Below are positions 6,715 to 62,360 of a stretch of 64,000 bases of DNA, piece after piece (position 1 is the stretch's first letter; each line of letters starts with the position of its first letter). The notes under the pieces are model-generated. The model was not told the origin of the DNA. It did not search any database and saw only the letters and a program-made list of their open reading frames with translations. Location of the stretch: positions 1 to 64,000 of the forward strand of contig NKIR01000003.1 in NCBI GenBank assembly GCA_002255985.1, in the 5' to 3' direction. Source of the DNA: Sphingomonadaceae bacterium PASS1 (GTDB lineage: Bacteria > Pseudomonadota > Alphaproteobacteria > Sphingomonadales > Sphingomonadaceae). Made by a program: the position numbers and the translations under genes.

Positions 6715-7365
6715 TTATGGTGCAAGCACTGACGGAAACGCAGCCTGTCGCTGATGCTGGCGGTAGGCGATGACTGCGCCCGCCATAAGGGCGAAGGACG
6801 CACCAAGCATCCATCCACCCAGCACGTCGGTCGGCCAATGGACCCCAAGCATGATCCGCGAAACGCCGGTCATCAATATCATCGTCGCCGCGGCGATCTG
6901 CCACAGGGGATGCCGCGCCTGCGGCACCAGCATGATGAATAGGATGTAGACCACTGCTGCATTGTTGGAATGCCCGCTGGGGAATGCCGGGCTGGTGATG
7001 GGATCAAGCTGCGCCACGAAATCGGGGCGGACACGCGCGAAAAAATACTTCATGACGTCAGACGTCAGTGCCGCGATCAGCGTCGTTACGCCCATGGCAA
7101 GCGCTGAGCCCCACCCCCACCAACGCCATAAGGCGAACGTCAGGACGGCGACAATTATGTAGCGTTGAACGCCGCCACCGATCCAGCTGATGCCTTGCAT
7201 AAGCAGGATCAGCCATTCGGGTGAACTGCCGCGCTGCATACTGAGTGCGTGCGAGATGACGAGGTCAAATTCGCGGAAATAGCCTGCGGTAACAGCGTAT
7301 CCCAACGCAACCACGAGGGTGAACAAAACCGCCGCCCCCGTCAAAAGACGAAAGGGCAAAATCAC
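6715..7365 (-). CDS. PAP2-family membrane phosphatase
   Basis: 216 residues with about five to six membrane helices. The three phosphatase signature motifs are complete: KYFFARVRP (106-114), PSGH (129-132) and SR-x5-H-x3-D (SR 169-170, H176, D180). Such enzymes remove phosphate from phosphatidic acid, undecaprenyl pyrophosphate or related lipids on the outer face of the inner membrane. The GTG start overlaps the TGA of the dihydrolipoyl dehydrogenase gene by four bases, so it is translated from the same transcript, although no functional link to the dehydrogenase is obvious. Confidence 0.85.
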   Translation of the reverse strand: MILPFRLLTGAAVLFTLVVALGYAVTAGYFREFDLVISHALSMQRGSSPEWLILLMQGISWIGGGVQRYIIVAVLTFALWRWWGWGSALAMGVTTLIAALTSDVMKYFFARVRPDFVAQLDPITSPAFPSGHSNNAAVVYILFIMLVPQARHPLWQIAAATMILMTGVSRIMLGVHWPTDVLGGWMLGASFALMAGAVIAYRQHQRQAAFPSVLAP

Positions 7366-8753
7366 ATGTGTATCATCTTGCCATAAGCGCCCAGCACGCT
7401 TTCGTGCATCATCTCGCTGAGCGTTGGATGCGGGAAAACGGTGTGCATGAAGTCCGCTTCGACCAACTCTGCCGTTTTGCCAATGGTATAGCCTTGGATG
7501 AGCTCCGTCACTTCAGCGCCCACCATATGCGCGCCCAGCAGTTCCCCGGTTTTAGAGTCGAACACGGTCTTGATGAAACCCTCGGCCGCACCCAGCGCAA
7601 TCGCTTTGCCGTTGCCGAGGAACGGGAAGTTGCCGACTTTGACGTCATAACCGGCCTCTTTCGCCTTGGCTTCGGTCAGGCCGACGCTGGCAACTTGCGG
7701 GTGGCAATAGGTGCAGCCGGGGATGTTCTTGGGGTCCATAGCGTGCGGATGCCCGCCGGCAATCGCTTCGGCGGCAATCACGCCTTCATGGCTGGCTTTA
7801 TGCGCCAACCATGGCGGCGCGGTGATGTCACCGATGGCCCAAAGGCCCGGTACATTGGTGCGGCACATTGGATCGGTTTTCAGGAAACCGCGGTCCATTT
7901 CGACGCCAAGCGCGTCTAGCCCGATATTTTCGGTGTTGGGGACAATGCCGATGGCGACGATGCAATGGGTGAATTCGGACTCAACAACTTTGCCGTCCTT
8001 ACCCTTGATCTTCGCAGAAACACCTGTCGCGGTGGCCTTGAGTTCTTCAACCCCTGCCCCGGTCATGATCGTCATGCCCTGCTTTTTCAGCGCCTTTTCA
8101 AGGAAAGTCGAAACATCGGCGTCCTCAACGGGTACGATGCGGTCGAGCATTTCGACGACGGTCACTTCTGCGCCCATATCATTGTAGAAGCTTGCAAATT
8201 CGATGCCGATCGCGCCAGATCCAATGACCAGCAGCTTTTTGGGCATTTCGGGCGGCACCATCGCGTGGCGATAGGTCCAGATGCGCTTCCCATCGGCAGG
8301 CGCAAATGGCAGGTCGCGGGCGCGCGCACCGGTGGCGAGGATGATGTTCTTCGCGGTCAGCTCGTCGGTCTTGCCATCTTTGGTAACCGTCAGCGTGTTG
8401 GCGGCAGTTAGCTTGCCATCGCCCATATGGACGGTGATCTTATTCTTCTTCATCAGATGCGTAACGCCCTGATTAAGCTGCTTGGCCACACCGCGCGATC
8501 GCTTCACCACCGCGTCGATATCCGCACTGATATTCGCCGCCGTCAGGCCGTAATCGCCCGCATGCTGCATATAATGATAGATTTCGGCCGAACGCAGCAA
8601 CGCCTTGGTCGGGATGCAGCCCCAGTTGAGGCAAATGCCGCCGAGATTTTCCCGCTCAACAATCGCGACTTTCAGCCCAAGCTGCGCCGCGCGGATGGCC
8701 GCAACATAGCCACCGGGTCCAGAACCGAGGACGATGAGGTCGTAATCAGACAT
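7362..8753 (-). CDS. lpdA: Dihydrolipoyl dehydrogenase (E3)
   Basis: A 463-residue flavoprotein that reoxidises dihydrolipoyl groups of 2-oxo acid dehydrogenase complexes with NAD+. It shows the FAD site GSGPGG (about 10-15), the redox-active disulfide C41/C46 in GGICLNWGCIPTK, a second nucleotide fold (LLVIGSGAIGIEFAS), and the C-terminal catalytic pair in HPTLSE (His about 442). Length is normal. It starts one base after the stop of the lipoyl-less E2 gene, so E2 and E3 form an operon with the PAP2 gene. The E1 genes are absent here; E1 alpha/beta genes occur at 53.5-55.5 kb. Confidence 0.93.
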   Translation of the reverse strand: MSDYDLIVLGSGPGGYVAAIRAAQLGLKVAIVERENLGGICLNWGCIPTKALLRSAEIYHYMQHAGDYGLTAANISADIDAVVKRSRGVAKQLNQGVTHLMKKNKITVHMGDGKLTAANTLTVTKDGKTDELTAKNIILATGARARDLPFAPADGKRIWTYRHAMVPPEMPKKLLVIGSGAIGIEFASFYNDMGAEVTVVEMLDRIVPVEDADVSTFLEKALKKQGMTIMTGAGVEELKATATGVSAKIKGKDGKVVESEFTHCIVAIGIVPNTENIGLDALGVEMDRGFLKTDPMCRTNVPGLWAIGDITAPPWLAHKASHEGVIAAEAIAGGHPHAMDPKNIPGCTYCHPQVASVGLTEAKAKEAGYDVKVGNFPFLGNGKAIALGAAEGFIKTVFDSKTGELLGAHMVGAEVTELIQGYTIGKTAELVEADFMHTVFPHPTLSEMMHESVLGAYGKMIHM

Positions 8754-8754
8754 A

Positions 8755-9885
8755 TTATGCCACCAATCCCAAAGGCTTCTCCACCAACTCCTTAAACACC
8801 TTCATCAACTGCGCGCCGTCTGCGCCGTCGATGGCGCGGTGGTCGAAGCTGCCGGTGGCCGACATGACTGTGGCGATGGCGAGTGCGTCATCGACAATAT
8901 AGGGCCGCTTTTCGCCAGCGCCGATCGCCATGATCATTGCTTGTGGCGGGTTGATGACGGCTTCGAATTGCTTGATGCCCATCATACCCATGTTGGAAAT
9001 GGACGCGGTGCCGCCCTGATATTCATGGGGCTGCAATTTGCCTTCCTTCGCGCGGGCCGCCAGTTCGGCAATTTCGGTCGAGATTTTCGACAGCGACTTG
9101 TTTGCAGCGTCTGTAACGATGGGCGTAATCAGGCCAGTGGGCACCGATACCGCAACGCTGATGTCGGCGCGGCTATATTGCAGCATATTGTCGCCGGCGA
9201 AGCTGACATTGCATTTGGGCACCTGAATAAGCGCAAGGCCAAGCGCCTTGATAAGCATGTCGTTGACCGACAGTTTGATACCACGTGGCTCAAGCGACGC
9301 GTTAAGCTCTCCGCGCAGCTTGAGTAAAGCATCGAGGCGGACATCGACCGTGAGGTAGATGTGCGGTACTTGCTGCTTGGACTCGGTCAAGCGGCGCGCA
9401 ATGGTTTTGCGCATGTTGGAGAGTTTAACGACTTCGTGCGGGATGTTGCCACCATCCACCGTAAGCCCTGAGCCTGTCGAAGGGCGGCTGTCGGCCGCAG
9501 GTGCTTCCCGGCGAAGGCCGGGATCCATCGCGGTTGAGGGGGCTGGGCTCCGGCCTGCGCCGGAGAACGCCTCGACATCTTCCTTAACAATGCGCCCATT
9601 GGGGCCGGTGCCCGTTACCAGGGTCAGGTCAATGCCCTTTTCGGTAGCGATGCGTTTCGCAAGCGGGGACGCTTTGACGCGGTCACCGCTGTGCGATGCT
9701 GCGGGAACCGCAATGGCGACGCTTGGTTGAGCCACGCTTGAGGGTGGCACTACCGACGGTGCACCTTCAATATCCGCTCTGACAATTCGTCCATTTGGAC
9801 CAGTGCCCCGAATGCTAGCAAGATCAATGCCCTTTTCAGCGGCAAGTAGTCTTGCCGAAGGGCTTATGCGCACTGCATCACTCAC
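8755..9885 (-). CDS. 2-oxo acid dehydrogenase acyltransferase (E2) lacking a lipoyl domain
   Basis: 376 residues. Two peripheral-subunit-binding domains come first (about 5-40, [17 protein letters not shown]; about 70-108, [17 protein letters not shown]), then a linker, then a complete catalytic domain (about 150-376) with the active-site FDHRAIDG (His about 348). Ordinary E2 proteins begin with one or more lipoyl domains; none is present, and an in-frame stop seven codons upstream of the GTG start rules out a longer N-terminus. The linker holds REP-like palindromes read in frame. A separate lipoyl-domain protein at 62130-62360 could supply the missing carrier. No Shine-Dalgarno precedes the GTG; a 13-codon frame ends over it, so coupled translation is possible. 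Confidence 0.85.
9462..9568. repeat. REP-like palindrome cluster inside the E2 gene
   Basis: Three palindromic modules lie side by side: CCCTGAGCCTGTCGAAGGG (9466-9484), a CCCGGCGAAGGCCGGG hairpin (from about 9507), and CTCCGGC-CTGC-GCCGGAG (9548-9565, perfect seven-base arms). The first core is a well-known intergenic repeat in sphingomonads. Here the block is translated as part of the Pro/Ala/Gly-rich linker between the second binding domain and the catalytic domain (roughly residues 110-145) and keeps the frame open. Confidence 0.75.
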
Positions 9886-9923
9886 GGCAACAGCAGGCCC
9901 AGGTCGTTACGCAGAATACCCAT
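9882..9923 (-). CDS. Possible 13-codon leader ORF upstream of E2
   Basis: ATG at 9923 opens a frame reading [13 protein letters not shown] whose TGA overlaps the GTG start of the E2 gene (GTGA). Because the E2 start has no ribosome site of its own, this short frame could couple translation. GGAG lies about 14 bases before the ATG, which is far. It could equally be a chance frame or a leftover of a longer E2 N-terminus. Confidence 0.25.
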
Positions 9924-10061
9924 GACAAAATGCCCACTCCAAATCCCTACTGTTGATTGCCGTATAATGCTCTGCGGCCTTCTATGACAACAAGATTGGC
10001 CAGTACTATATTAAATCTAAGCCGAATTTTACCTGTCCTGCCGTCTCATCACAGCTCGGTC

Positions 10062-10092
10062 AAAAAAAGGCCGGTGGGATGAACCACCGGCC
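10062..10092 (-). terminator. Rho-independent terminator of the TonB receptor gene
   Basis: On the minus strand a perfect nine-base stem GGCCGGTGG / CCACCGGCC (10084-10092 and 10069-10077) with a six-base loop is followed by seven T residues. It lies about 40 bases after the receptor stop codon and separates it from the E2-E3 operon. Confidence 0.9.
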
Positions 10093-10130
10093 TAAAGTTT
10101 TACTGGTATAACCCAGTGTTGGAGATGTTT

Positions 10131-12908
10131 TTAGAACTTTTTGGACACACCCAATTTGACCACCCGGCCCATAGTGTAACCAGTATAAGCGATGAAGTTC
10201 TGGCTTGAACGCAGGATGACTTGCGGCTTTTGTTCGAACATATTGTCGATACCAAGGCGCAATGATGTACCGCCCAGGGCCCCACCTTCACCAAACTCAT
10301 AACCGAACGCGAGATTGATGACGGTGAAAGGGTTCACCACGCGTCCAATAACGCCCGTATTGGTGCTATTGGGGTCTCGGTACTTGCCCGTGTAGTTGAT
10401 GGTCATCCTTGAGGAAAAGCCACCCGATCTAAAGCCCAAATTGGTGCTAGCTGTAAATTCTGCCGAACCGAGCCCCAGTTGATTAACAAATGTACCAAAG
10501 TTGGTTTGCGATTTGGTTGCTTTGGTACCGGATATACCGGCGCTAAGCTGTCCAAAATCGAAATCCTGCGCATAGTTCAGATGGAAATCAACACCTTCAA
10601 GCTTGGCATTACCAATGTTCGACGTACGCCGATCAACGATAAATGCAATGTTGCTAGATGGTTGCTGCGCACCAAGCTGCGCACCATTGGTCAACTGCGC
10701 CAGAATAGCGGCATATGTTGCGGGGAACGTTCCTGGGCCGCTATTGTAGATGTATAGCTCAGGATTAGTCGTGTAGGTGGTGAGGTTCTGTGGGTCAACC
10801 GCAGCGAGAATGTCATCAAATTTCAGCGAGTAAAACTGTCCGCCGAAATTGAAGCCATTGGATGGTGTCACTTCAAACCCAACTGCCCAGTTTTCCGACG
10901 TCTGTGGTTGCGTCCCGGAATTCGTTCCATCCAACACCATTGCATGGCTACCAAAGCCGAGGTCGTTCACAGGCGCTGGATCAGTTGGGCGCCGCGATGG
11001 GTCGCTGCTGTTCGCCAGATATTGGTTCAACGCGAAACGACCCGTGGCGATAGCCAAGCCGTCGACTGCGGTCGGGGCGTTGAACGAGGTGCTCCAATGG
11101 CCATAGACTTTCAGCCAATCGGTTGGCGTCAGGCTTACGCCCAAGCTCGGGTTCGTGGTGGAACCAAAATCGCTGTAGTCATCGATACGCAACGACGCCG
11201 AAAGATCGACCCATTCCATGACCGGTAGTGATAGTTCACCAAAAGCCGACTTCGAATTACGGCTATAGTCAAGATATGGCAGCGCATTGATAGAACCAAA
11301 ACGACCCGTATTCAGGCGGCTTTCTGCCTGATTGCGCTGATATTCGACACCGACTGCGACCTTGGCTTCGCCACCCGGAAGTTGGAAAATGGGGCCGTCA
11401 GCGACCAACCGCGTCACAAACATATTTTGTTTGGACTGTTGAGCGCTCGCAAAATCGTTGATGTCGGTAATTACTGCAGCGGTTGCGGCAGCAACATTCA
11501 GCGGGTTAAGCTGACCAGCCGTGATGGCTGCTCCGGTCGGCGATGCAGCGGCTGTACAGCCGGTGATATAGCATTGTGCGAGCGAAGTATTAACTGTTGA
11601 GAACTGCTGGTAATTGTCGGACTGGCCATAATGCGCAGTAGCACGCAATTGCCAATCGCCACCGGCTTTGTACGTCAACTCCGGCGTGATGCCCCATGTT
11701 TCAAGACCAACCGTGTTTGGTGTGTTTACATAAGCCGAATTGGGCGCAAAGCGGAAACCGACGCCTTCCGTGACCGCAAACAGACCGCCACGAGGTGTCG
11801 CCAACGCTGCGGGGAAAGCCGCTGTTAGAGCAGCACCACTGGTGATACCGCTACCGGCCGAAGTAAATCCGCGCGGGACGATCGGCAAAGTGGTGTCGCG
11901 CTTGGACCAGTAGCCGGTCATCCTAAAATCGAGGCGGTCCGAAAATTCCTGGGTTACCGCAGCATAGACGTTATAGCGTTCAACTTCAGGGGCATAAGTT
12001 GCCTGTCCAATGGCATCGCAACCAGAACCGACTGGGAATGTCCCTGCTCCGGGCGCCGCGGGATTGTTCGTGAAACCAGCGCCAAAATTGAACCAGCGGG
12101 TTTCAGTACCCACAGGAGAGTTACACTGGGTACCGGTAAAACTGCCGACGCCGGCGGAGTTGAAAACCTGGCTCTGCGACCACGTCGTTTCATTGTTCAG
12201 CACCGAATTGCGTTTCGAATAGCTGCCCGAAATCCAGGCATTACCCGAATCCCAGCTCATGCCGCCGGTCAACGAAGCGTCCCAATAGCTGTAGCCAGAG
12301 ATCGTGTCGCCCAAGCCATAATTGGCATCAGCCTTGAGACCTTCGAACTTGCGCATGGTCCGGAAGTTGATAACGCCCGATACAGCGTCGGCGCCGTATA
12401 AGGACGAACCGCCATCGGTAACAACCTCAAGCCCAGCCAAGACAGCTGCAGGGATGATGTCGACATCAACAGCTGACTGGTTAACGCCTACTGGCGTGAC
12501 GCGAAAGCCATCGACCAACACCAACGCTGTGCCACCCGAGGCCGAGTTGGCGCTTGGAAGGTTGCGCAGATTTGGACGGTTGATTGAAAGGCCGGTATTA
12601 ACGCCGCGCGGATCGACCTCGAATCGGCCGTTAAAGGTGTTTGCGATTTGCGGGATCAACGACAGCAATTCATTTGTTGATACCGGCGCTTTCGCGGCAA
12701 TGGCATCAGTGGTCACGCTGAGCGTCTGCGAACCCACGACCGTCTTGCCACGGATCAGAGTACCCGTAACGATGATCTCTTCATCACCAGCATCTTCCGC
12801 AGTGGTTGTTGCTACAGGCGCTGTATCTTGCGCCCATGCTGGCGCAGTAATTGTTGCGCACAATGCAGTTGCAGCAAATAGTGACAGTTTTACGCGACTT
12901 GCTCTCAT
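10131..12908 (-). CDS. TonB-dependent outer-membrane receptor
   Basis: 925 residues with a signal peptide (MRASRVKLSLFAATALCATI, cleaved near AWAQD). A sphingomonad-style plug domain follows, with EIIVTGTLIRG at its start, ALVLVDGFRV, and SSLYGADAVSGVINFRT. A long 22-stranded beta-barrel region ends in the terminal aromatic KLGVSKKF. It imports a large or scarce substrate across the outer membrane using TonB energy; in this context the substrate of the catabolic region is the natural guess. AGGGAGAG precedes the ATG and a strong terminator follows. It has no partner gene in its transcript. Confidence 0.92.
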   Translation of the reverse strand: MRASRVKLSLFAATALCATITAPAWAQDTAPVATTTAEDAGDEEIIVTGTLIRGKTVVGSQTLSVTTDAIAAKAPVSTNELLSLIPQIANTFNGRFEVDPRGVNTGLSINRPNLRNLPSANSASGGTALVLVDGFRVTPVGVNQSAVDVDIIPAAVLAGLEVVTDGGSSLYGADAVSGVINFRTMRKFEGLKADANYGLGDTISGYSYWDASLTGGMSWDSGNAWISGSYSKRNSVLNNETTWSQSQVFNSAGVGSFTGTQCNSPVGTETRWFNFGAGFTNNPAAPGAGTFPVGSGCDAIGQATYAPEVERYNVYAAVTQEFSDRLDFRMTGYWSKRDTTLPIVPRGFTSAGSGITSGAALTAAFPAALATPRGGLFAVTEGVGFRFAPNSAYVNTPNTVGLETWGITPELTYKAGGDWQLRATAHYGQSDNYQQFSTVNTSLAQCYITGCTAAASPTGAAITAGQLNPLNVAAATAAVITDINDFASAQQSKQNMFVTRLVADGPIFQLPGGEAKVAVGVEYQRNQAESRLNTGRFGSINALPYLDYSRNSKSAFGELSLPVMEWVDLSASLRIDDYSDFGSTTNPSLGVSLTPTDWLKVYGHWSTSFNAPTAVDGLAIATGRFALNQYLANSSDPSRRPTDPAPVNDLGFGSHAMVLDGTNSGTQPQTSENWAVGFEVTPSNGFNFGGQFYSLKFDDILAAVDPQNLTTYTTNPELYIYNSGPGTFPATYAAILAQLTNGAQLGAQQPSSNIAFIVDRRTSNIGNAKLEGVDFHLNYAQDFDFGQLSAGISGTKATKSQTNFGTFVNQLGLGSAEFTASTNLGFRSGGFSSRMTINYTGKYRDPNSTNTGVIGRVVNPFTVINLAFGYEFGEGGALGGTSLRLGIDNMFEQKPQVILRSSQNFIAYTGYTMGRVVKLGVSKKF

Positions 12909-13075
12909 TTCACTCTCCCTAAAGTAAATTCCTCTGCCTTGTTCTCCGGCATATTCTGCAGACGTATGCGGCTTTTAACTACAATGCCATCGCCCAACCA
13001 ACAAGTATCGCTCCGGCGAACTGTTAATCGACATATGTGTTGATTACAAACTTTGGCTAGCGGCCATAATCTAAA

Positions 13076-13091
13076 ATAAACATTTGTTTAT
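13076..13091. promoter_or_regulatory. AT-rich palindrome between the TonB receptor and NTF2-like genes
   Basis: ATAAACA-TT-TGTTTAT is a perfect palindrome with seven-base arms in the 290-base space between divergent genes. It could be a repressor site for either gene. The rest of this space shows nothing else I can name. Confidence 0.35.
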
Positions 13092-13199
13092 ATTGCATAT
13101 TTATCCAGATTTACGTGATCATTTTGCATGCAAAGAACGCCATGGCGATATACGCCGAACCAGATAGACAATGCCGCATAATCACGCCAAATTTTAAAG

Positions 13200-13742
13200 A
13201 TGAACCAACCTTTGGAAGACATGCTCGCCCGCGAGCACATCCGTTGCTGCATCGCACGACTAGCGCGCGGAGAAGACCGCCGCGATGCCGCATATATTGC
13301 AGCATCTTACTGGCCCGACTCGGTGACGGACTATGGGGTCTTCAAGGGAACGTTCGACGAATATCTCGCATGGGTCGTTCCCGGCGCGGATGCTATTGCC
13401 AATACCCAGCATCACATTGGCCAGAGCCATATCGAACTCGACGGCGACAGCGCGAGGGTCGAAACGCAGGTTATCTCGTATCACCGCATCGATTATGGAA
13501 ACAAAGACGAGCACGACACTGTGATCGGCGGGCGTTACCTTGATGTCTTTGAAAAACGTGACGGTGACTGGCGTATTGCAAGCCGTTTGATGCTGTATGA
13601 CTGGTTTCAGGATTGGGGCGCGTCGATCGACTGGTCACAAGGTGTTATGGGAATGCCATTTAGCGCCCCGCATTTCCAGGGGCGATCGCATAATGATTAC
13701 AGTGTTCAGTTCTTCCAAATAAACCAGGACAAAGAATGTTGA
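13200..13742 (+). CDS. NTF2-like (SnoaL-type) protein
   Basis: 180 residues with the alpha+beta cone pattern of the SnoaL/NTF2 superfamily: an N-terminal helix pair with 'LAREHIRCCIARLARGEDRR', a central HHIGQSHIEL strand, and VIGGRYLDVFEKRDGDWRIA. Proteins of this fold include polyketide cyclases, dehydratases, delta-5-3-ketosteroid isomerase and the small subunits of Rieske oxygenases. It is the first of four such genes in the window. A weak AAAG precedes the ATG. It is divergent from the TonB receptor and convergent with the DUF1330 gene. Enzymatic role unknown. Confidence 0.75.
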   Translation: MNQPLEDMLAREHIRCCIARLARGEDRRDAAYIAASYWPDSVTDYGVFKGTFDEYLAWVVPGADAIANTQHHIGQSHIELDGDSARVETQVISYHRIDYGNKDEHDTVIGGRYLDVFEKRDGDWRIASRLMLYDWFQDWGASIDWSQGVMGMPFSAPHFQGRSHNDYSVQFFQINQDKEC

Positions 13743-13750
13743 TCAGGATT

Positions 13751-14050: not shown

Positions 14051-14064
14051 AATCCAAATCCTTT

Positions 14065-53534: not shown

Positions 53535-53537
53535 TGT

Positions 53538-54527
53538 TTACCCCATTAAGGATTTTGCAGCAGCAATGATGTCATCAGGCTGTGGCACGAAAGCGTCTTC
53601 CAATACCTTTGCAAAAGGTACCGCGCAATAAGCGCCGCCAAGACGTTTGACCGGTGCCTTCAACTGACCAAATAGCTCTTCGCTAATGGTCGAGGCGATT
53701 TCTGCACCAGGACCAAAATTGCGGACAGCCTCATGCACCACCAAAGCACGCCCCGTTTTGGCAACCGAAGCGAGCACAGCCTCTTTATCCCATGGCGATA
53801 TGGTCCGCAGGTCGATGAGTTCGGCCGAAATCCCGGCCTCAGCCAAACCGGCGAGCGCCATCTGGCAGCGCAAAATCTGTCCCGACCAACTGATAATCGT
53901 CAGGTCGCTGCCTTCAACCATCACATTGGCTTTACCCAATGGGATCGGCCCCTGATCGTCGGCGACATCGCCCGGAGCAAACAGAGTCATACCGTTTTCA
54001 ACAAAAATGCACGGATCGGGATCCTGAATGCAGGACATCAACAAACCCTTCATATCCGCAGGATTTGAAGGGCAAACCACTTTGATACCTGCCGAGTGCG
54101 CGAACCAGCCTTCCAGATGGTCGCTGTGCTGGCCCGCGGTTTGCCAGCCTGCGCCGGTCAATGTCCGGATTGTGATCGGTACGCTCGTCTGCCCACCGCT
54201 CATGAAACGCAATTTGGCAGCGTGGTTGAAGATCATATCCATCGCAACGGTGGTGAAATTCATCAGCATGATTTCGGCAACGGGTTTGTATCCCGCCATC
54301 GCAGCGCCAATCGCGGCACCAATAATGGCCTGTTCGGAAATCGGCGTGGTGCGCACGCGGTGCTCGCCAAATTGGGTCGAAAGCCCCCGCATCGTCCCGG
54401 TAACGCCGCCGCCCTGCGGATCGGCAATGTCTTCGCCGAGAACCAGCACCTTGGGATCGGCTTCCATTGCTTCGACCATCGCTGCGTTAATGGCCTGAAT
54501 GCCATTCATTTTCTGAATACCGCTCAT
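53538..54527 (-). CDS. 2-oxo acid (or acetoin-type) dehydrogenase E1 beta subunit
   Basis: 329 residues of the transketolase-like beta subunits: QAINAAMVEAMEADPKVLVLGEDIADPQGG, STQFGEHRVRTTPISEQAIIGAAIGAAM, and TGAGWQTAGQHSDHLEGWFAHSAGIKVVCPS. With the alpha subunit it decarboxylates a 2-oxo acid or cleaves acetoin-like compounds with ThDP and passes the acyl group to lipoyl-E2. Best resemblance is to AcoB-like proteins. ATG overlaps the alpha stop by four bases. Confidence 0.9.
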   Translation of the reverse strand: MSGIQKMNGIQAINAAMVEAMEADPKVLVLGEDIADPQGGGVTGTMRGLSTQFGEHRVRTTPISEQAIIGAAIGAAMAGYKPVAEIMLMNFTTVAMDMIFNHAAKLRFMSGGQTSVPITIRTLTGAGWQTAGQHSDHLEGWFAHSAGIKVVCPSNPADMKGLLMSCIQDPDPCIFVENGMTLFAPGDVADDQGPIPLGKANVMVEGSDLTIISWSGQILRCQMALAGLAEAGISAELIDLRTISPWDKEAVLASVAKTGRALVVHEAVRNFGPGAEIASTISEELFGQLKAPVKRLGGAYCAVPFAKVLEDAFVPQPDDIIAAAKSLMG

Positions 54528-55519
54528 GCTGCGATCTCCTCTGCAAATACATCGCGGCGCAGTTCGTCCACCGAAGGTAGAGGACTGTTCATGCCAAACT
54601 CTTCAGCATCGGCGATTTCCGCCTCCAGATCGGCCTGCATTTTCGAAAGCTGTTCTTCATTGGCATGGCCTTCGGCAACCAATCGTGCCCGCAAAGCCGG
54701 CAAGGGATCCTTTGCTATTGCGGCTTCTTTTTCTTCTTTGGGAATATAGAAGTCGTCATCACCCAGAACATGGCCGAGAAAACGGAAGGTTTTGCATTCC
54801 AGCAAGGTCGGGCCTTCGCCTGCACGTGCGCGCTCTATCGCAACGCTCATATGCGCATACATGTCGTCAGGATCATTCCCGTCCAAGGTGAAGCCCGGCA
54901 TGTTGTACGAAATCGCCCGGGTCGAAATTTTGTCGACTGACGTCGCCAGATTGTAAGAGGTATGTTCGCCATAGCCGTTATTGGGGCAGACGAAAATCAC
55001 CGGCAGCTTCCAAAGCGAGGCCAGATTCAACGCCTCGTGAAACGCACCAATATTGGATGCGCCGTCGCCAAAGAAGGCAACGACAACGCGTTTCGACCCA
55101 TCCAACTGCGCAGCCCAGCCAAGGCCGTTGGCAATCGGCATCGACGAACCGACAATACCTGTTGTTACCATGATCCCCATTTCAGGATAGGTCAGATGCA
55201 TTGGTCCGCCCTTGCCTTTACAGGTGCCATCAACGCGGCCAGCGATTTCAGCCCATAAGGGGCGCAGCGGCATGTCCTTTGCCACCATATCCTGAATACC
55301 GCGATAAATGGTGCAAATCTGGTCTTCATCGTTGAGCAGATGGCCAATAGTCGCCGGAATCACTTCCTGCCCACGCGCCGAATAATAAGGCATAGTCAAC
55401 CGACCGCGCCGGATGGTCTTGCGGATGGCATCGTCATTACGTTCGACGCGCAGCATGCGGCGGTAGATATCGACCAATGCCGCGCCATCGGGCTTGGGGG
55501 CGTTGCTTTGCTCTGCCAT
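54524..55519 (-). CDS. 2-oxo acid (or acetoin-type) dehydrogenase E1 alpha subunit
   Basis: 331 residues. The ThDP motif is intact: GDGASNIGAF (151-160) to PNNGYG with N180-N181; the N-terminal MPYYSARGQEVIPATIG and GKGGPMHLT also mark the AcoA/PdhA family. The frame extends to 55627, but ATG 55519 with GAGGTG before it is chosen. It forms E1 with the adjacent beta subunit. E2 (8.8 kb), E3 (7.4 kb) and lipoyl domain (62.1 kb) are elsewhere in the window. Confidence 0.92.
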   Translation of the reverse strand: MAEQSNAPKPDGAALVDIYRRMLRVERNDDAIRKTIRRGRLTMPYYSARGQEVIPATIGHLLNDEDQICTIYRGIQDMVAKDMPLRPLWAEIAGRVDGTCKGKGGPMHLTYPEMGIMVTTGIVGSSMPIANGLGWAAQLDGSKRVVVAFFGDGASNIGAFHEALNLASLWKLPVIFVCPNNGYGEHTSYNLATSVDKISTRAISYNMPGFTLDGNDPDDMYAHMSVAIERARAGEGPTLLECKTFRFLGHVLGDDDFYIPKEEKEAAIAKDPLPALRARLVAEGHANEEQLSKMQADLEAEIADAEEFGMNSPLPSVDELRRDVFAEEIAA

Positions 55520-55587
55520 GTTCACCTCTATTTTATGGTTTTGAATGATATCGTTAGTCGGGCGTTGGCCGGACAAGGTCAACCGCG

Positions 55588-55629: not shown

Positions 55630-55648
55630 GCAGGGTATAAAAGCAAAC

Positions 55649-55921
55649 ATGGATACAAAAACTGCATTGCAGGCCGAGCGCGTTGTCGCACTTGAGGCCG
55701 AATTGGAAAGTGCCGGAGAGGTGTCGCTAGCCGAGGCAGCGCTCGCGCAATCGCGGGCCGACTTGCATGACTGGGTGGAAACGGTGGTCGGCATTGTGTG
55801 CTCCCCGGGGGTCGGCCGTGTGTCACTCATCCACAAAGACGGCAGCCAATCGAGCATCGCATCATCACGGTTGCCATTTTTACTGTCTCGCCCGGCACAA
55901 TTTGAACGCGGCGGAGATTAG
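55649..55921 (+). CDS. Small protein of unknown function
   Basis: 90 residues. The first 50 are Ala/Glu-rich and likely helical (ALQAERVVALEAELESAG...); the rest reads GIVCSPGVGRVSLIHKDGS, which could be a small beta structure. AAAAGCAAAC precedes the ATG. It lies three bases ahead of an SDR gene and is divergent from E1 alpha. The coding case rests on tight spacing with the SDR gene; family unknown. Confidence 0.5.
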   Translation: MDTKTALQAERVVALEAELESAGEVSLAEAALAQSRADLHDWVETVVGIVCSPGVGRVSLIHKDGSQSSIASSRLPFLLSRPAQFERGGD

Positions 55922-55924
55922 AGA

Positions 55925-56785
55925 ATGACGACGCAAACAGTCGCTATTGTTACTGGGGCCAGCCGTGGCGCGGGCAAAGGCATTGCGATTGCGCTGGGTA
56001 GTTATGGCTGCACCGTGTATGTCACAGGCCGAACGCAGTCGTCAGGGCAGGCATTGCTGGGTGGCACAATCCATGAGACTGCGGAAGCCGTGACAGCAGC
56101 AGGCGGAACCGGGATTGCCGTCGCCGTCGATCATGCGGATGACAATCAGGTCCGCGCCCTGTTTGATCAGGTACAACGCGAACAGGGTCAGCTTGACATC
56201 CTTGTTAACAATGCTTGTGCGCTGCATAGCGAAATGACTGCGCCAGGTAACTTCTGGGAAAAGCCCCTAAAAATAGTCGACATGCTCGATGTCGGCCTGC
56301 GTAGCAGTTATGTTGCCAGCTGGCTCGCGGCACCGATGATGATCGCACAGGGACGCGGCCTCATCCTGTTCAACTCTGCCTCGGGAGCGGTCCATTATGT
56401 CTATGGTCCGGCATATGGGGCGCACAAAGCAGGGGTAGACAAGTTCGCAGCCGATATGGGAGTCGATTTTACCGGAACTGGCGTCGCGGCAATTTCGGTC
56501 TGGATGGGCGCACTGCGCACCGAGCGCCTGCTGCAGCTCATCGCGACGGACCAGAAAAAATTTGGCTACCTTGAGGGGCAATGCGAAACACCGGAATTTA
56601 CCGGCCATGTCGCTTGGTCGCTGTATAATGATCCGGAGATAGCTACACTAAACGGACAAACGGTTATTGGCGCAGAAATGGCCATCAAATACGGAATTGT
56701 CGATGAAGGCGGGCGGCAACCAAAGTCGTACAGAGATACGCATAAGGTTGCACCTCACAGTCCCTATCCTAATATCATACGTTAA
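55925..56785 (+). CDS. Short-chain dehydrogenase (DHRS1-like)
   Basis: 286 residues, paralogous to the SDR at 34995: TGASRGAGKGIAIALG, VYVTGRTQSSG, VDHADDNQVRALF, LVNNACALHSE in place of NNAG, and FWEKPLKIVDMLDVGLRS. The active-site region reads YGPAYGAHKAGVDK, so a Tyr-x3-Lys pair (YGAHK) is present, unlike in the paralogue. Cotranscribed with the small gene before it and convergent with an NTF2-like gene three bases beyond. Confidence 0.85.
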   Translation: MTTQTVAIVTGASRGAGKGIAIALGSYGCTVYVTGRTQSSGQALLGGTIHETAEAVTAAGGTGIAVAVDHADDNQVRALFDQVQREQGQLDILVNNACALHSEMTAPGNFWEKPLKIVDMLDVGLRSSYVASWLAAPMMIAQGRGLILFNSASGAVHYVYGPAYGAHKAGVDKFAADMGVDFTGTGVAAISVWMGALRTERLLQLIATDQKKFGYLEGQCETPEFTGHVAWSLYNDPEIATLNGQTVIGAEMAIKYGIVDEGGRQPKSYRDTHKVAPHSPYPNIIR

Positions 56786-56788
56786 CGG

Positions 56789-57337
56789 CTACCAGCGCAG
56801 CCCATCGGTGCCGGCAACATAAGGGCGGTTATCTGACGGATCTTTCCCGTCCCATCGCGCTTTCAAAAAGCCTTTAACATTATCGGTAAAGACCCACCTT
56901 CCATCGGCATCAGCGGACATTTCAATAGTGCATTTGCGCGTGTGCAGGCGCCATTCGCCATTGCGTCGCTCCAGCCGATCAAGATAACGGCCAAACGCAA
57001 GCGTCGTGCGCTCATTGTTTTGCCAGAACAATCCCCCGATAACGTAGGATTCGCAATGCGCAGTATCACCATCAATGTCGCACAGATGGTTGGTGATGTT
57101 ATGACTGGTCATATTGAACAGCATTTTGTGCCCCATATTCGCACGTTTTGCATAGTCCGGAATGCGTGTGATCACCGCACCATGCTCGTCAACACCGTCT
57201 GACCACCAGCATTCCGTAATCTGCAGCTCATCCTGCCTGTCGCGCGCACGACATTCGCGCTGGATACAATCCAGTATGTCCTGCCGATCTTTCAACAGGC
57301 GGACAGTTTGCAGTAGCTCCGAAAGTTCTGGCTGCAT
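56789..57337 (-). CDS. NTF2-like (SnoaL-type) protein
   Basis: 182 residues: LLKDRQDILDCIQRECRARDR, ECWWSDGVDEHG, a NITNHLCDIDGDTAHCESY strand and FGRYLDRLERRNGEWRLHTRK. Same type as the genes at 13200 and 36797; the IDGDTAH/DRLERR wording is shared with 36797, so these are paralogues. It follows the KstD-like gene by 11 bases, as its second gene, with TAGGAGCG before the ATG. In steroid pathways an NTF2-fold isomerase acts on 3-keto substrates; here that is only a thought. Confidence 0.8.
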   Translation of the reverse strand: MQPELSELLQTVRLLKDRQDILDCIQRECRARDRQDELQITECWWSDGVDEHGAVITRIPDYAKRANMGHKMLFNMTSHNITNHLCDIDGDTAHCESYVIGGLFWQNNERTTLAFGRYLDRLERRNGEWRLHTRKCTIEMSADADGRWVFTDNVKGFLKARWDGKDPSDNRPYVAGTDGLRW

Positions 57338-57348
57338 CGTCTACGCTC

Positions 57349-59034
57349 CTAAATTGAATTCCCCACACCGGCCGCATGCTTGGCAGCGACATAGCCAAAC
57401 GCCATGCTTGGCCCAATGCTCGCCCCTGCAGCCGGATAGACCCCGCCCATGACGCTGGCGGAGGAAACACCGCATGCATAAAGCCCGGCTATTGCGGAAC
57501 CATCGGCGCGCACCACACGGCCCTGGCTATCGGTAACTGCGCCGCCATAGGTTGAAACATCCCCCGGCACGACATCGACCGCATAATAAGGCGCCTTGTC
57601 AATCCGACCCAAAGCGGGGTTTGGTTGGTGAAAGGGGTTCCCGAGCCACTGGTCATATTTACGATGTCCGCGATTGAAATCCGCGTCATGCCCGGCATCA
57701 ACAAAGCTGTTCCAACGATCGACGGTCGCCTGCAAAGTGCCAGGATCGCAATCCAGCTGTCGCGCCAGCCCCTCGATTGTATCCGCCTCTTTCAAATAGC
57801 CGCTGTCGCGCCACATCTGATAGTATTTCGTGATCTTGACCCCGCCAATCGGGTATTTCGCCGCATATTGCGCATCAAAAATTGCCCAACTGGGCACTGC
57901 CGGGACAGTTTTGTTCCGCTCCCACATATTTTGGCAATATAGTTCATAACTGCCGCCTTCATTCATGTACCGCTGACCCGATTGATCGACGAGAATTGCG
58001 TGCGGTTTGCCCGTGGTGCTTTGGATCGGTGGTTTAACGAAAGCCTGTTCCCAGCCGGGCATCCGAGTCATCTGGTAACCGACCATCTGGTCCATTTGGC
58101 CCAGCACGCCACCGACCCGTTCAAATTCGCCATGCAGGTCACCCGTGTCGCCTTCCGGGACATTTGACCATTGGGCGTTTGTGCCAGGCATATAAATGTC
58201 GCGCATCGCTTGATTCTGGGCAAAGCCACCCGCGTTGACGAGCACACCCAGATTCGCGCGGATGCGGCCCTTGTTGGTGACCACGCCTACGACCTTACCA
58301 TCTTCAACGATCAGTTCTTTCACCGATGTTTCGGTGCGTATCTCCACCCCTGCCTTTAATGCGGCTTGCAGCATCCGGCCTTGGAGTGCCGCACCTGCCC
58401 CAACCCAACGCTGGCCCAGCAATTTGCCCAACACCATGCCGACGCCCGTTTTCAGGAAAGACCACGTAATATCCCAGCTTTTGCCGACATAAGCGAACTT
58501 CATACCGTCATCGAGCTTGACCTTCATCGGCATAAAACCGGGCCGCAGCTTTGCTTCCCATTCGCCCAATTCTTTGGTGTTGAACGGTTTGGCGACGACC
58601 GAACGGCTGGTGCTGCACCCGCCGTGGGCATCGTCATAATAATCGGGCCAAAATTTCGACGCCCGTTCGAGTGCGATTCCCTCACCCAGCAGAAAGTCGA
58701 TCATTCTGGGCGCTTCGCTAACATAGGCTGCACGCTTTTCGGTGTTGGATCCCGGCAGATCTTCGCACACAGTTTCCAGATAAAGCATTGCCTTTTCCGC
58801 GTTTTCATCGGGCTCGTCGGCACGAATAAACCGGTTGTTGGGAACCCAGATCACCCCACCCGACTTTGCTGTCGTGCCGCCTAAAACCGGGGTTTTTTCC
58901 AGAATGAGCACCGATTTTCCAGCCTTGCGCATCACCAGCGCAGATACAAATGACCCGGCACCGCTGCCGGCGATCACCCAGTCATAGCTTTCGTCGAATT
59001 CGTCCACATCTTGTTCCTCAATTGCCTTCGCCAA
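57349..59034 (-). CDS. KstD-like FAD-dependent 3-ketosteroid/enone dehydrogenase
   Basis: 561 residues of the fumarate-reductase/3-ketosteroid-delta1-dehydrogenase flavoproteins: FAD motif VIAGSGAGSF (about 20-29), GGTTAKSGGVIWVPNN, and near the C-terminus YPAAGASIGPSMAFGY, in which Y533 and G537 match the YPGAG active-site pair of KstD. It removes hydrogens next to a ring ketone. The start is TTG with no clear ribosome site, so it may be set wrong by a few codons. Downstream is the NTF2-like gene. Substrate could be a steroid, terpenoid or other cyclic ketone. Confidence 0.82.
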   Translation of the reverse strand: MAKAIEEQDVDEFDESYDWVIAGSGAGSFVSALVMRKAGKSVLILEKTPVLGGTTAKSGGVIWVPNNRFIRADEPDENAEKAMLYLETVCEDLPGSNTEKRAAYVSEAPRMIDFLLGEGIALERASKFWPDYYDDAHGGCSTSRSVVAKPFNTKELGEWEAKLRPGFMPMKVKLDDGMKFAYVGKSWDITWSFLKTGVGMVLGKLLGQRWVGAGAALQGRMLQAALKAGVEIRTETSVKELIVEDGKVVGVVTNKGRIRANLGVLVNAGGFAQNQAMRDIYMPGTNAQWSNVPEGDTGDLHGEFERVGGVLGQMDQMVGYQMTRMPGWEQAFVKPPIQSTTGKPHAILVDQSGQRYMNEGGSYELYCQNMWERNKTVPAVPSWAIFDAQYAAKYPIGGVKITKYYQMWRDSGYLKEADTIEGLARQLDCDPGTLQATVDRWNSFVDAGHDADFNRGHRKYDQWLGNPFHQPNPALGRIDKAPYYAVDVVPGDVSTYGGAVTDSQGRVVRADGSAIAGLYACGVSSASVMGGVYPAAGASIGPSMAFGYVAAKHAAGVGNSI

Positions 59035-59070
59035 CTAGAACCGGCCAAAGGCGCTGGCACAAGAGCTTAT

Positions 59071-59102
59071 CGCCACGGCGGCATAGGCATATCGCCGTGG
59101 CG
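59071..59102. promoter_or_regulatory. Perfect inverted repeat between KstD-like and crotonase genes
   Basis: CGCCACGGCG (59071-59080) and CGCCGTGGCG (59093-59102) are ten-base inverted arms around a 12-base loop, filling much of the 83-base space between divergent genes. It may be a regulator site or an RNA hairpin in the crotonase leader. Confidence 0.45.
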
Positions 59103-59117
59103 TGATATGAAGGGGTC

Positions 59118-59912
59118 ATGACTGACTTACCAAACTTCCAGACCATATTGCTCGAACGCCGGGCGCGCCTGCTGCGTATAACCATGAATCGGCCCGATTC
59201 GATGAACGCCTTCAACCTCGATCTGCATAACGAACTGCCAGAAGCATTGGCCTTTGCACGCAGCGATACAGGCTCAGACGTCATCATGCTTACAGGTGCT
59301 GGCCGCGCCTTTTCAGCAGGTGGCGATATTGCGCATATCGAACGCAATGCCGCCAATCCGGAGCTATTCGACCATGAAGTCGAAATGGCCAAGGCAATCA
59401 TCTTCACCCTGCTCGACATCGACAAGCCCGTTGTCTGCCGGATGAACGGCCATGCCGTCGGGTTGGGCGCTACGCTCGCTTTGTTCTGCGACGTGATCTT
59501 TGCCACAGATACCGCAAAGATCGGTGATCCGCATGTTGGGCTTGGCCTCGTCGCGGGCGATGGCGGCGCGGTGATCTGGCCACAGCTGATTGGGCTGGCG
59601 CGCGCGAAGGAATATCTGCTGACGGGTGACTTAATTCCCGCGCCGCGCGCTGCGGAAATGGGACTGATCAACTATGCCTTGCCTGCCGAAGATCTGGACG
59701 CAGCCGTCGATGGCTTTTGCGACCGGCTGCTGGCGGGCGCGCAGCAGGCGATCCGCTGGACCAAGAAGCTGACGAATATGGAACTGAAACGCGTTGCCGA
59801 CAGCGTTATGCCCGTTGGTCTCGATTACGAAGTCCAATCCGTACGCACCGCCGACCATCGTGAAGGCGTCGCAGCGCTTAAGGAAAGACGCAAACCAATT
59901 TTTGGTAAGTAA
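59118..59912 (+). CDS. Crotonase-superfamily protein (enoyl-CoA hydratase/isomerase-like)
   Basis: 264 residues. NRPDSMNAFNLD, oxyanion-hole FSAGGDIAHIE, MNGHAVGLGATLALFCDV, and AKEYLLTGDLIPAPRAAEMG. The second catalytic Glu (KEYLLTG) is kept, but the first, normally P-E in the loop before GxxPGxGG, is replaced: the sequence reads GDPHVGLGLVAGDGG. It may therefore be an isomerase, hydrolase or C-C cleaving crotonase and not a hydratase. GAAGGGG precedes the ATG. Single gene, divergent from KstD-like. Confidence 0.85.
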   Translation: MTDLPNFQTILLERRARLLRITMNRPDSMNAFNLDLHNELPEALAFARSDTGSDVIMLTGAGRAFSAGGDIAHIERNAANPELFDHEVEMAKAIIFTLLDIDKPVVCRMNGHAVGLGATLALFCDVIFATDTAKIGDPHVGLGLVAGDGGAVIWPQLIGLARAKEYLLTGDLIPAPRAAEMGLINYALPAEDLDAAVDGFCDRLLAGAQQAIRWTKKLTNMELKRVADSVMPVGLDYEVQSVRTADHREGVAALKERRKPIFGK

Positions 59913-59955
59913 TCAGCGGGCTTCCGTAGGATGATGCACAGTTGCCGACATTATC

Positions 59956-61002
59956 TTAATTACCAAGCATCGCCTTTGCCATGGCAAGGATCAGGTCGAG
60001 ATCACCCTGTGCCGACGGGATAGCTTTGCGGAAAGTGGCAAAGCCGTGAATATTGCCTTGCGACTCATAATGTTTGGTGGGCACGCCCGCCGCGAGAAGC
60101 TTTGCAGCAAAGGCGCGGCCGCCATCGCGAAGTGGGTCGAGCGCGGCAGTGGCGATAACAGTTGGGGGAAAGCCATTCAGGTCAGCGAGCAACGCCGAGT
60201 GCCGGATGCTTTTCTTGTTCGCCCCAAGTGCCTTGTCATAAAAACTGCTGTCGGCCGCATCAAGGCCATAGCCAACGCCGAAGGACGTGCTTGACGGATA
60301 TTGTTTTGAGGCATCGGCCATCGGGTAAAACGGGATCGTTAGCTTGACCGGAACGGCGGCGGGCTTATCGCGCAACGCCAATGCCGTAACCAGCGTTAGC
60401 GTGCCGCCAGCGCTGTCGCCGGAGAGGATCAGTCCGGTAACCTCACGCCCCAATGCGTCGCCACTGGTCGCGACCCAGCGAGCCGCCGCCTCCGCATCGT
60501 CGGGTGCAGCCGGCCATTTTGCCTCTGGCGCGAGACGATATTCGACCGAGACCACAGGGACGTCCAATTGCCGCGCCATTTCCGCCGCTAGCGAAGCGTG
60601 GGTGCCGGTGCTGCCAACAACAAAACCACCGCCATGATAGAAAACCAATATCGGTCCAGGCGCGCGCGTGGCCTTGCTGTCAAACAGACGCAGTTCGATT
60701 GGCCCCGCCGGTCCAGGCATCGTTAGCATTTTATCGACCGCCAGTGGGCCCACCGGCTTTTCCGAAGCCGACATCATCTGCGCGATTTGCGCTGGCGGGA
60801 TTTTGCGGATCATTGCAATCGTCGCGTCGTTCATGTGCGGGCGCGGATTTTTGAACAAGTTGTCGAGATAGGCCTGCACGTCGGAACGGACATAGGGCGT
60901 CGCCTTAGCATCTTGGGCAAATGCTTCAGGCACCGTTCCGACAACGGCAGCGCTCCCGGCCAACGCCATGGCTGCCATCGTGTTTCGAATTCCGCTTTTC
61001 AT
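59956..61002 (-). CDS. Exported alpha/beta hydrolase, hormone-sensitive-lipase family
   Basis: 348 residues with a signal peptide (cleaved near EAFAQD, about 30). HGGGF (123-127), GDSAGG with S197, and a late SQGNIHGFA with the catalytic His. An esterase outside the cytoplasm, similar in type to the one at 52584 but exported. CTGAGGACAGACAGT precedes the ATG. It follows the Gfo/Idh/MocA gene by 11 bases as the last gene of the lipoyl-oxidoreductase-esterase transcript. Confidence 0.87.
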   Translation of the reverse strand: MKSGIRNTMAAMALAGSAAVVGTVPEAFAQDAKATPYVRSDVQAYLDNLFKNPRPHMNDATIAMIRKIPPAQIAQMMSASEKPVGPLAVDKMLTMPGPAGPIELRLFDSKATRAPGPILVFYHGGGFVVGSTGTHASLAAEMARQLDVPVVSVEYRLAPEAKWPAAPDDAEAAARWVATSGDALGREVTGLILSGDSAGGTLTLVTALALRDKPAAVPVKLTIPFYPMADASKQYPSSTSFGVGYGLDAADSSFYDKALGANKKSIRHSALLADLNGFPPTVIATAALDPLRDGGRAFAAKLLAAGVPTKHYESQGNIHGFATFRKAIPSAQGDLDLILAMAKAMLGN

Positions 61003-61013
61003 ACTGTCTGTCC

Positions 61014-62117
61014 TCAGTTGATTTCCGATATTGCGACCCAGCGGCGTTCTGCGCTCGAAAGCCGGATAGCCTCCTGTATTTGTTCGATTTGTAATGCACG
61101 CGCGAAATCAGGGGAGGCCTTCCCCCGCCCGAGGATCGCCTCGACCATCGCGTGCATCGACAGCGCCATGGGGAAGCTCGGCGCAATGTCGGCCTGCCAA
61201 TCGACGCCAATTCCTTCCACGACCTTGAAATGATTGGGGATAGCGACCGGTGCGAGCTCGGCGCCCAGCTGCCCAGCCTCCAATGTGCAATCCCGGGCGG
61301 TGGGAAAGGTTGGCGATTTCGCCACCATGCGCGCTTTCGCACCAAAAACGTCGATCAGAAAGCCATCGTGCAGCGGCATCGACCAACTTATCTGCATCTG
61401 CATTGTCAGGCCGCTCTCAAACTTTAGGATGACATTAGCAAAGTCATTGGTTTCCGGCACGATGATATCGCCGTCAGGGAAAACCCATTGTGCCAAAATC
61501 CGACTATCATCGGCAACGAGTTCCGCGACCGGCCCGAACAGATGGGTAAGCAGATAAAGCGCGTGGCTTCCATTATTGCGCACTGCCGACACACCCGCGC
61601 TGCCGTCGGCAAACCAGTTATACGGGAAACGCTTGTCAGGTGCGTTGAAAAGCGAAATATTGAAACGACAGGTCCCGCCGAGCGCGTCGCCCAAAAAGCC
61701 GTCATCGACCATGTGTTTCATGTGCCGGAGCGCCGGGATATATTCGCAGAATGCATCCACCACACCGATGCTGCGACCATTGGCAAACGCGCCCCCAATC
61801 GCCTTGGCCCCGTTCCAATCTGGCGCATGTGGGCTGGCGTTATAGATATGCTTGCCGTGCTTAAGCGCCGCAAGCACCATTGGAAGCCGCACCGATGGGC
61901 GCGTGCCAAGGTCAACAATATCTATATCGGGATCGGCGCACAATTCTTCTGCGTTCCAGAATGCCCGTGGCAGGGATAAACGCGATTGTGCGTTCTTTGC
62001 TGTTTCCTCGCGGGAGGTACAGATCGCAGTAACTTCTACGCCAGGTATGGCACGCCACGCAGGCAAATGCGCAAACGCGCCCCACCCTGCGCTGACTATG
62101 CCGACGCGCTGGGTCAC
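61014..62117 (-). CDS. Gfo/Idh/MocA-family oxidoreductase
   Basis: 367 residues. N-terminal Rossmann fold (VGIVSAGWGAFAHLPAWRAI), DLGTRPSVRLPMVLAALKHGKHIYN with the family's substrate loop, and a C-terminal alpha/beta domain. In this family the usual EKP segment after HGKHI is absent: the sequence reads NASPHAPD, so the catalytic Lys of sugar dehydrogenases is missing here. It oxidises or reduces an unknown hydroxyl or ketone. The start is GTG with no strong ribosome site, 12 bases after the lipoyl-domain gene. Confidence 0.78.
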   Translation of the reverse strand: MTQRVGIVSAGWGAFAHLPAWRAIPGVEVTAICTSREETAKNAQSRLSLPRAFWNAEELCADPDIDIVDLGTRPSVRLPMVLAALKHGKHIYNASPHAPDWNGAKAIGGAFANGRSIGVVDAFCEYIPALRHMKHMVDDGFLGDALGGTCRFNISLFNAPDKRFPYNWFADGSAGVSAVRNNGSHALYLLTHLFGPVAELVADDSRILAQWVFPDGDIIVPETNDFANVILKFESGLTMQMQISWSMPLHDGFLIDVFGAKARMVAKSPTFPTARDCTLEAGQLGAELAPVAIPNHFKVVEGIGVDWQADIAPSFPMALSMHAMVEAILGRGKASPDFARALQIEQIQEAIRLSSAERRWVAISEIN

Positions 62118-62129
62118 ATTAATTGCCGG

Positions 62130-62360
62130 TTACTCGATGGTGCCAATGACGGTACCAACTGCGTATGTTTCGCCCTCAATGCCGCTGATGCGCAGAATTC
62201 CTGAAGCAGGCGCCTCAACTTCGTTGGCGGATTTATCCGCTTCAAGAAGATAGAGTGCTTCGCCTTCTACGACTTCTTCACCATCGGCGAAAAGCCATTC
62301 GGCAATCTGACCTTCGTTCATCGAAAAGCCGATTTTTGGAAGCAGTATTTCGGTGGCCAT
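62130..62360 (-). CDS. Free-standing lipoyl (biotinyl/lipoyl attachment) domain protein
   Basis: 76 residues that form just one lipoyl domain: TEILLPKIGFSMNEGQIAEW at the N-terminus, the modified lysine K43 in LLEADKSANEVEAP, and YAVGTVIGTIE at the end. Single lipoyl domains of this wording normally stand at the N-terminus of E2 acyltransferases. The E2 in this window lacks such a domain, so this protein is a strong candidate carrier for it. The E-x-D-K-S site favours lipoate over biotin (which has A/V-M-K-M). ATG 62360 is used over the frame open to 62399. First gene of its transcript. Confidence 0.88.
   Translation of the reverse strand: MATEILLPKIGFSMNEGQIAEWLFADGEEVVEGEALYLLEADKSANEVEAPASGILRISGIEGETYAVGTVIGTIE

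Follow-up and report, generated by a model that had tools for sequence, protein, structure and literature searches.

A candidate split 2-oxo acid dehydrogenase with a separately encoded lipoyl domain in Sphingomonadaceae bacterium PASS1

Genes of the window and of its genome

The stretch analysed here (the window) comprises the first 64,000 nucleotides of contig NKIR01000003.1 from Sphingomonadaceae bacterium PASS1. As judged by Pfam, it encodes E1, an E2 catalytic domain, a lipoyl domain and E3 of a 2-oxo acid dehydrogenase, with the lipoyl domain being no covalent part of E2, E1 beta or E3 but the product of a gene of its own (Table 1). From its sequence, the bacterium appears to build a split module of this type, with a small protein of its own serving as the lipoyl arm. 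A preliminary description of the window had proposed an E2 with two subunit-binding domains and an intact catalytic domain but without a lipoyl domain, a 76-residue protein consisting of a lipoyl domain and nothing else, and E1 alpha and beta genes at 53.5–55.5 kb; Pfam searches bore out all three, the E1 genes carrying the expected domains. Its placement of the E3 at 7.4 kb in the same set held for the identity of the enzyme but not for its membership, the gene being the E3 of the pyruvate dehydrogenase (PDH) locus.

In the Pfam search, Biotin_lipoyl (PF00364) had no match in E2 (8755–9885), E1 alpha, E1 beta or E3, and in a genome-wide search for this family the sole match on the window contig lies at 62136–62351. 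The E2 catalytic family PF00198 covers residues 150–374 of the window E2 (E 2.1e-77 for the whole protein), and no lipoyl coding was seen in the 250 bases upstream of its GTG start. A hidden upstream lipoyl domain or frameshift was thereby rejected for the window, and likewise for the similar E2 genes introduced below, on contig C4 of the same genome and in genomes G095 and G360 (~500 bases upstream of each). The translations contain DHRAIDG in E2 and DK in the lipoyl protein, which we take to be the active-site motif and the lipoylation motif, respectively. The DK aligns with that of structurally known E2 lipoyl domains, and the protein is 53–75% identical to seven further free lipoyl proteins, including one encoded in its own genome.

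Table 1. Features of the window discussed in the text
Feature	Position	Strand	Evidence and remarks
Lipoyl-less E2 acyltransferase	8755..9885	-	376 aa; PF02817 x2 + PF00198, no PF00364
E2 subunit-binding domain 1	9766..9873	-	PF02817, 62.1 bits
E2 subunit-binding domain 2	9571..9678	-	PF02817, 69.3 bits; near-copy of the domain in the genome's own PDH E2
E2 catalytic domain	8764..9438	-	PF00198, 261.6 bits; DHRAIDG present; 99% identical to pdhC of L036-L039
Repeat core, possible misjoin; one assembly copy though at least two genes contain it	8932..9445	-	C11 end and C3 start at its borders
E3 dihydrolipoyl dehydrogenase, PDH-locus E3	7362..8753	-	Pfam; synteny with relatives
E1 alpha	54524..55519	-	PF00676, 1e-69; frame open from GTG 55627, first ATG 55519
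E1 beta	53538..54527	-	PF02779 + PF02780
Free lipoyl-domain protein, 76 aa	62130..62360	-	PF00364, 5.6e-14
FAD-binding ketosteroid-dehydrogenase-like protein, same cluster	57349..59034	-	NCBIfam ketosteroid-delta-1-dehydrogenase models, below cut-offs
Gfo/Idh/MocA oxidoreductase adjoining the lipoyl gene	61014..62117	-	Pfam

The source genome (G000; 3.07 Mb in 30 contigs, with the window on contig C29) has E1 alpha-type genes at seven places: those of PDH (C17), the branched-chain (BCKDH, C11) and the 2-oxoglutarate (OGDH, C12) dehydrogenases, one each on C29 and C13, and two on C4. Three E1s have no attached E2, namely those of the window, of C13 and of C4, the last being an alpha–beta fusion in a 754-aa frame. 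E2 catalytic domains occur at five places (OGDH, BCKDH, the window, C4 and the 3' end with which C3 begins), the PDH E2 being cut by the end of C11 so that its lipoyl and binding domains remain. The C4 gene is a second lipoyl-less E2, 76% identical to that of the window, with two binding domains and an integrase-like gene alongside. Three free lipoyl genes are present: the window's, one on C4 that is 53% identical to it and lies directly downstream of the E1 fusion, and one on C13, 6 kb from the C13 E1. The checks named in the preliminary description were mostly in favour of its reading: the search for other sets in the genome turned up those of PDH, OGDH and BCKDH, but each of them comes with an E1 of its own. 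The fusion at C4:259–261 kb (L025 9026–11290), with E1 alpha and beta in one frame followed by the free lipoyl gene, resembles fusions in G075, G113 and G276. A further E1-like frame of 740 aa (L034 4668–6890; C4:529 kb) had no lipoyl match nearby in the genome-wide search.

Occurrence in other genomes

Across 149 genomes of the family, 22 (G000 counted) contain a match to the free lipoyl protein at E 1e-22 or better; the match in G082 sits in a 314-aa frame and was left out, giving 20 other free-lipoyl genomes with 21 loci. At 20 of these loci E1 alpha/beta genes lie within 8 kb of the lipoyl gene, and the remaining locus is a contig of 3.4 kb. Lipoyl genes closer to the C13 type adjoin E1 in G048 and G056. 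A phylum-wide search gave few matches, with three of 398 genomes reaching E 1e-22 and G000 among the three. Plasmid records with the trio of E1 alpha, E1 beta and free lipoyl genes come from Azospirillum sp. B510, two Paraburkholderia, Diaphorobacter and Streptomyces; that of Sphingobium sp. RAC03 has the order of the window's cluster. On the annotated plasmids of both Paraburkholderia and of Diaphorobacter the trio is followed by an E2 of 249–275 aa, and a trio with a short E2 is likewise found in G136 (twice), G375 and G074. Two of the short Burkholderiales E2s (L120 8283–9110, L121 8236–8985) read DHRVING where the window has DHRAIDG, with Asn for Asp. In a tree of E1 beta built from 29 split-type and 8 attached-type rows, some loci being left out, 25 split-type sequences including that of the window form one clade (support 98/94), outside which fall C13 and the type of G074, one G136 locus (G136b) and G375. 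The nonsynonymous rate was below the synonymous rate (dS) in all 25 pairs compared, with dS often near saturation.

To survey the E2s, PF00198 was searched in 40 genomes, the 20 with a free lipoyl gene and 20 for comparison, yielding 130 places, of which 121 were examined (the nine omitted all belong to comparison genomes). A lipoyl domain stands in frame at 115 places, and the six without one are in G071, G095, G136 (two), G182 and G074. Lipoyl-less E2s are thus found in 4/20 free-lipoyl genomes and in 1/20 comparison genomes, the latter being G074, which carries a free lipoyl gene of another type; the comparison genomes had been chosen because one particular lipoyl profile gave no strong match in them, and they may, as G074 does, hold other types. 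Two free-lipoyl genomes are incomplete (G125, 66%; G062, 85%). The lipoyl-less E2 is ~75 kb from the free lipoyl gene in G182 and ~7 kb in G071. By themselves these counts are weak, and the argument rests on linkage.

The tandem-binding-domain E2 was followed separately. Among the best 80 of 447 confirmed relatives from named genomes, a lipoyl domain is present in 77 and three are cut by contig ends. When 45 genomes from the genus were searched with the full tandem profile, matches were confined to G000 (two places), G036 and G043; 28 of the 30 genus loci checked contain a lipoyl domain, the other two being the C4 gene and G036, where the contig ends within the gene and no call is possible. 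Because some assemblies are in both, the genus set and the 80 named records are not independent. Among 397 family genomes the profile matches in 31, at 32 places; 11 places with frames of at least 490 aa were left out of the locus check, and 4 of the 20 loci checked lack a lipoyl domain, namely those of C4, G095, G360 and G375, with the window as a fifth place. Lipoyl-less tandem-binding-domain E2s therefore occur in at least 4/397 family genomes (20/32 places checked by locus), including three other genera, and the second copy on C4 together with these genera rules out the window E2 as an isolated oddity. Matches to this E2 on Acinetobacter and RAC03 plasmids lie in annotated genes of ~471–511 aa, with room for an N-terminal lipoyl domain, and were set aside as relatives on annotated size alone. 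In the PDH E2s of L126, L054, L053 and L068, two subunit-binding domains come after a lipoyl domain, which may represent an intermediate architecture.

The islands of G095 and G360 bring the components together. Both hold an E1 (76–78% identical to that of the window), a free lipoyl gene (67–74%), a lipoyl-less E2 (56–62%) and other genes of the window cluster. E2 lies ~19 kb from the lipoyl gene and ~15 kb from E1 in G095, and ~9 kb and ~3.5 kb, respectively, in G360. Under random placement in genomes of ~3 Mb, such closeness of E2 and lipoyl gene would arise with a chance of ~1.3% (G095) and ~0.6% (G360). All eight genomes with a lipoyl-less E2 (G000, G095, G360, G375, G136, G182, G071 and G074) have a free lipoyl gene near E1, a figure that is biased because five of them, all but G360, G375 and G074, had been preselected or were known for that gene.

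For the E2 catalytic domains, a constraint keeping the five lipoyl-less tandem-domain E2s in one clade was rejected (p-AU 0.0009). The window and C4 copies group with the pdhC of near relatives, and those of G095, G360 and G375 branch close to the base of the pdhC set, their exact places being weakly supported; holding these three together was not rejected (p 0.36). The first tree of catalytic domains was built without one row, a misframed slice of L118.

The join between E2 and E3

The E3 of the window is 98% identical to the E3 adjoining pdhC in L036, L038 and L039; gene order on the E3 side follows that of the PDH locus. L038 is from Sphingorhabdus rigui, and L036, L037 and L039 are from other Sphingomonadales; protein rows cover E3 in L036, L038 and L039 and PAP2 in L037, while the DNA alignment spans E2, E3 and PAP2 in all four. 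In these relatives ProS is followed by RNase R, a universal stress protein, pdhC including its lipoyl domain, E3, PAP2 and amidohydrolase; the end of C11 holds the first half of this order and the window the second, at 88–98% protein identity. The last 247 bases of C11 are 98% identical to the window (9691–9445), with four differences and the final 126 bases exact. The first 138 bases of C3 match the window exactly and lead into a broken E3 start; this contig start (L028 1–238), in which a truncated E3 start comes after an E2 3' end, is a further copy of the E2 tail. Because the C11 end and the C3 start both match the window there, at least two genes have the repeat stretch in common, and the ~512 bases between the two matches occur once in the assembly.

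The window E2 consists of an island-side 5' end (9692–9885, the first 65 residues) joined to a PDH-side 3' end. We conclude that two loci are linked in the window by way of a repeat, either by an assembly misjoin or by recent recombination, the misjoin being more likely because synteny puts the PDH halves together. In either case the E3 is, on its sequence and surroundings, that of PDH, and beyond its first binding domain the island-side gene has its sequence in common with pdhC. The join has no bearing on the lipoyl-less design, because C4 carries another lipoyl-less E2. Two further similarities were observed. Blocks of Gfo/Idh-like and other genes closely resemble each other at L026 13.5–17.9 kb (C4) and L028 3.8–8.2 kb (C3), with an E2 copy near each, and the E2 linker of the window (9457–9507) contains a short dispersed repeat with matches of 28–44 bases (86–97%) on C4 (two), C25 and C11.

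Proposed mechanism, rival explanations and relation to known systems

Alongside its PDH, OGDH and BCKDH sets the genome has three unattached E1s, as many free lipoyl genes and two E2s without a lipoyl domain. With the conservation and linkage described above, this inclines us to the view that the genes encode a split 2-oxo acid (or acyloin or diketone) dehydrogenase of a catabolic island, whose free arm would be loaded by E1 and unloaded by the lipoyl-less E2. In the established chemistry, E1 acylates the lipoyl-lysine, E2 transfers the acyl group to coenzyme A (CoA) and E3 re-oxidises the arm. Here, E1 alpha/beta would decarboxylate or cleave a pathway intermediate and acylate the predicted lipoyl-lysine of the free 76-residue protein; the acylated protein would travel to the lipoyl-less E2, where the acyl group would be handed to CoA, and the PDH E3 of the cell would re-oxidise the arm. 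Such a carrier would have to move between partners in the manner of GcvH, and the arm is likely to be diffusible. The two E2 binding domains might hold E1 and E3 side by side on one chain, and the missing tether may be made up for in this way, because the second domain could keep E1 and E3 together. In genomes without a lipoyl-less E2, the housekeeping E2 may take the load. Island frames read by eye, without a family search, include Rieske-type oxygenases, acyl-CoA dehydrogenases and CoA transferases. The ketosteroid-dehydrogenase-like gene has a 56% identical counterpart beside E1 in G360, and the Gfo/Idh/MocA neighbour of the lipoyl gene recurs in RAC03 and G095. Given the ketosteroid-dehydrogenase-like protein and those island genes, our guess at the substrate is a ring-derived 2-oxo acid, acyloin or diketone.

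Several observations weigh against the split dehydrogenase. No E3 is dedicated to the module, the E2–E3 join of the window may be an assembly error, and the window E2 might serve PDH, because its catalytic domain is a near-copy of that of PDH E2. The tandem-domain E2 of G375 is unlinked to E1 or a lipoyl gene within the 48 kb of contig scanned, the E1–lipoyl–short-E2 set of this genome being on a different contig. The co-occurrence considered in the preliminary description holds in one direction, from lipoyl-less E2 to free lipoyl gene (8/8), and is not seen in the other, as 16/20 of the other free-lipoyl genomes surveyed show only lipoyl-bearing E2s.

Given these 16 genomes, it may often be a housekeeping E2 that the free arm works with. 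An explanation built on this would have E1 load the free lipoyl protein and a PDH or BCKDH core unload it, with the lipoyl-less E2 being optional; an E2 domain that depends on lipoyl supplied in trans is described for OdhA of C. glutamicum in PMC10415282. We regard this as unlikely, since lipoyl-less E2s are linked to E1 and lipoyl genes in G095 and G360, and the short E2s adjacent in G136, G375, G074 and on three Burkholderiales plasmids would be superfluous. The near identity of the part common to the window E2 and PDH E2 favours mixed cores, and the catalytic domains of both G000 copies group with the pdhC of relatives, as would suit an adaptor akin to E3-binding protein that co-assembles with PDH E2 and adds binding domains for the island E1, leaving the work to the PDH arms and another role to the free lipoyl protein. 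An E3-binding protein is marked by loss of the catalytic motif, but the window, C4, G095, G360 and G375 genes all translate to an intact DHRAIDG; the catalytic domains of the last three are set apart from pdhC, and the regular neighbour of E1 is the free lipoyl gene, making the adaptor improbable. The contig ends, the repeat and the synteny are also what would result if assembly had merely fused pdhC to a tandem-domain gene. Such a chimera would account for the join but not for the architecture, because C4 and three other genera have the full lipoyl-less tandem-domain gene, and the four differences in the 247 bases of the common segment imply two real copies; as an explanation of the window E2 as a whole, we consider it very doubtful. 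Within the split dehydrogenase itself, a plug-in arrangement can tentatively be imagined, in which one or two common lipoyl-less E2 cores would serve several pathway-specific pairs of E1 and free lipoyl protein (three here), each with its own diffusible arm.

Like PDH and other 2-oxo acid dehydrogenase complexes with E1 alpha and beta, the set comprises the E1s, E2 catalytic and subunit-binding domains, a lipoyl domain and E3, but the lipoyl domain has a gene of its own and E2 begins with two binding domains. GcvH is the free lipoyl carrier of glycine cleavage. According to PMC6067878, LbpA is a free lipoyl carrier protein in sulfur oxidation. The window protein is like both in being free, but belongs to a different family by the models matched here: it matched only PF00364 in Pfam (E ≤0.001) and the lipoyl parts of E2 or E1 in NCBIfam (E ≤1e-5), and no H-protein model. 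Its best NCBIfam match is the lipoyl part of the acetoin dehydrogenase component AcoC, of which it covers model positions 2–77 of 372, scoring 70 bits where the cut-off is 307, and it has no fused second domain. Haloferax E1 alpha/beta operons beside a free lipoyl gene were reportedly described by Wanner and Soppa in 2002; these are archaea, and they are not known to have a partner E2 with tandem binding domains. Two reviews name the Haloferax E1 operons, with the lipoyl gene unmentioned in the passages concerned. The E2 domain of actinobacterial OdhA/KGD depends on lipoyl supplied in trans by AceF (PMC10415282), but there the lipoyl domain belongs to another E2 and here to a free protein. A literature search over titles and abstract starts of open-licence papers found no description of a bacterial split module with a free lipoyl protein.

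In accounts of channelling in 2-oxo acid dehydrogenase complexes, tethering of the lipoyl arm is generally given a central part. A set conserved with its arm untethered would allow a natural test of the need for tethering, and the textbook rule may have a natural exception. Such a set would offer a role for the 'lipoyl domain-containing protein' genes of catabolic islands. If the plug-in arrangement were true, new substrates would be gained through an E1–lipoyl cassette with no new complex needed. A conserved set with a free arm would also show how aerobic degraders may acquire new thiamine-dependent oxidations by cassette.

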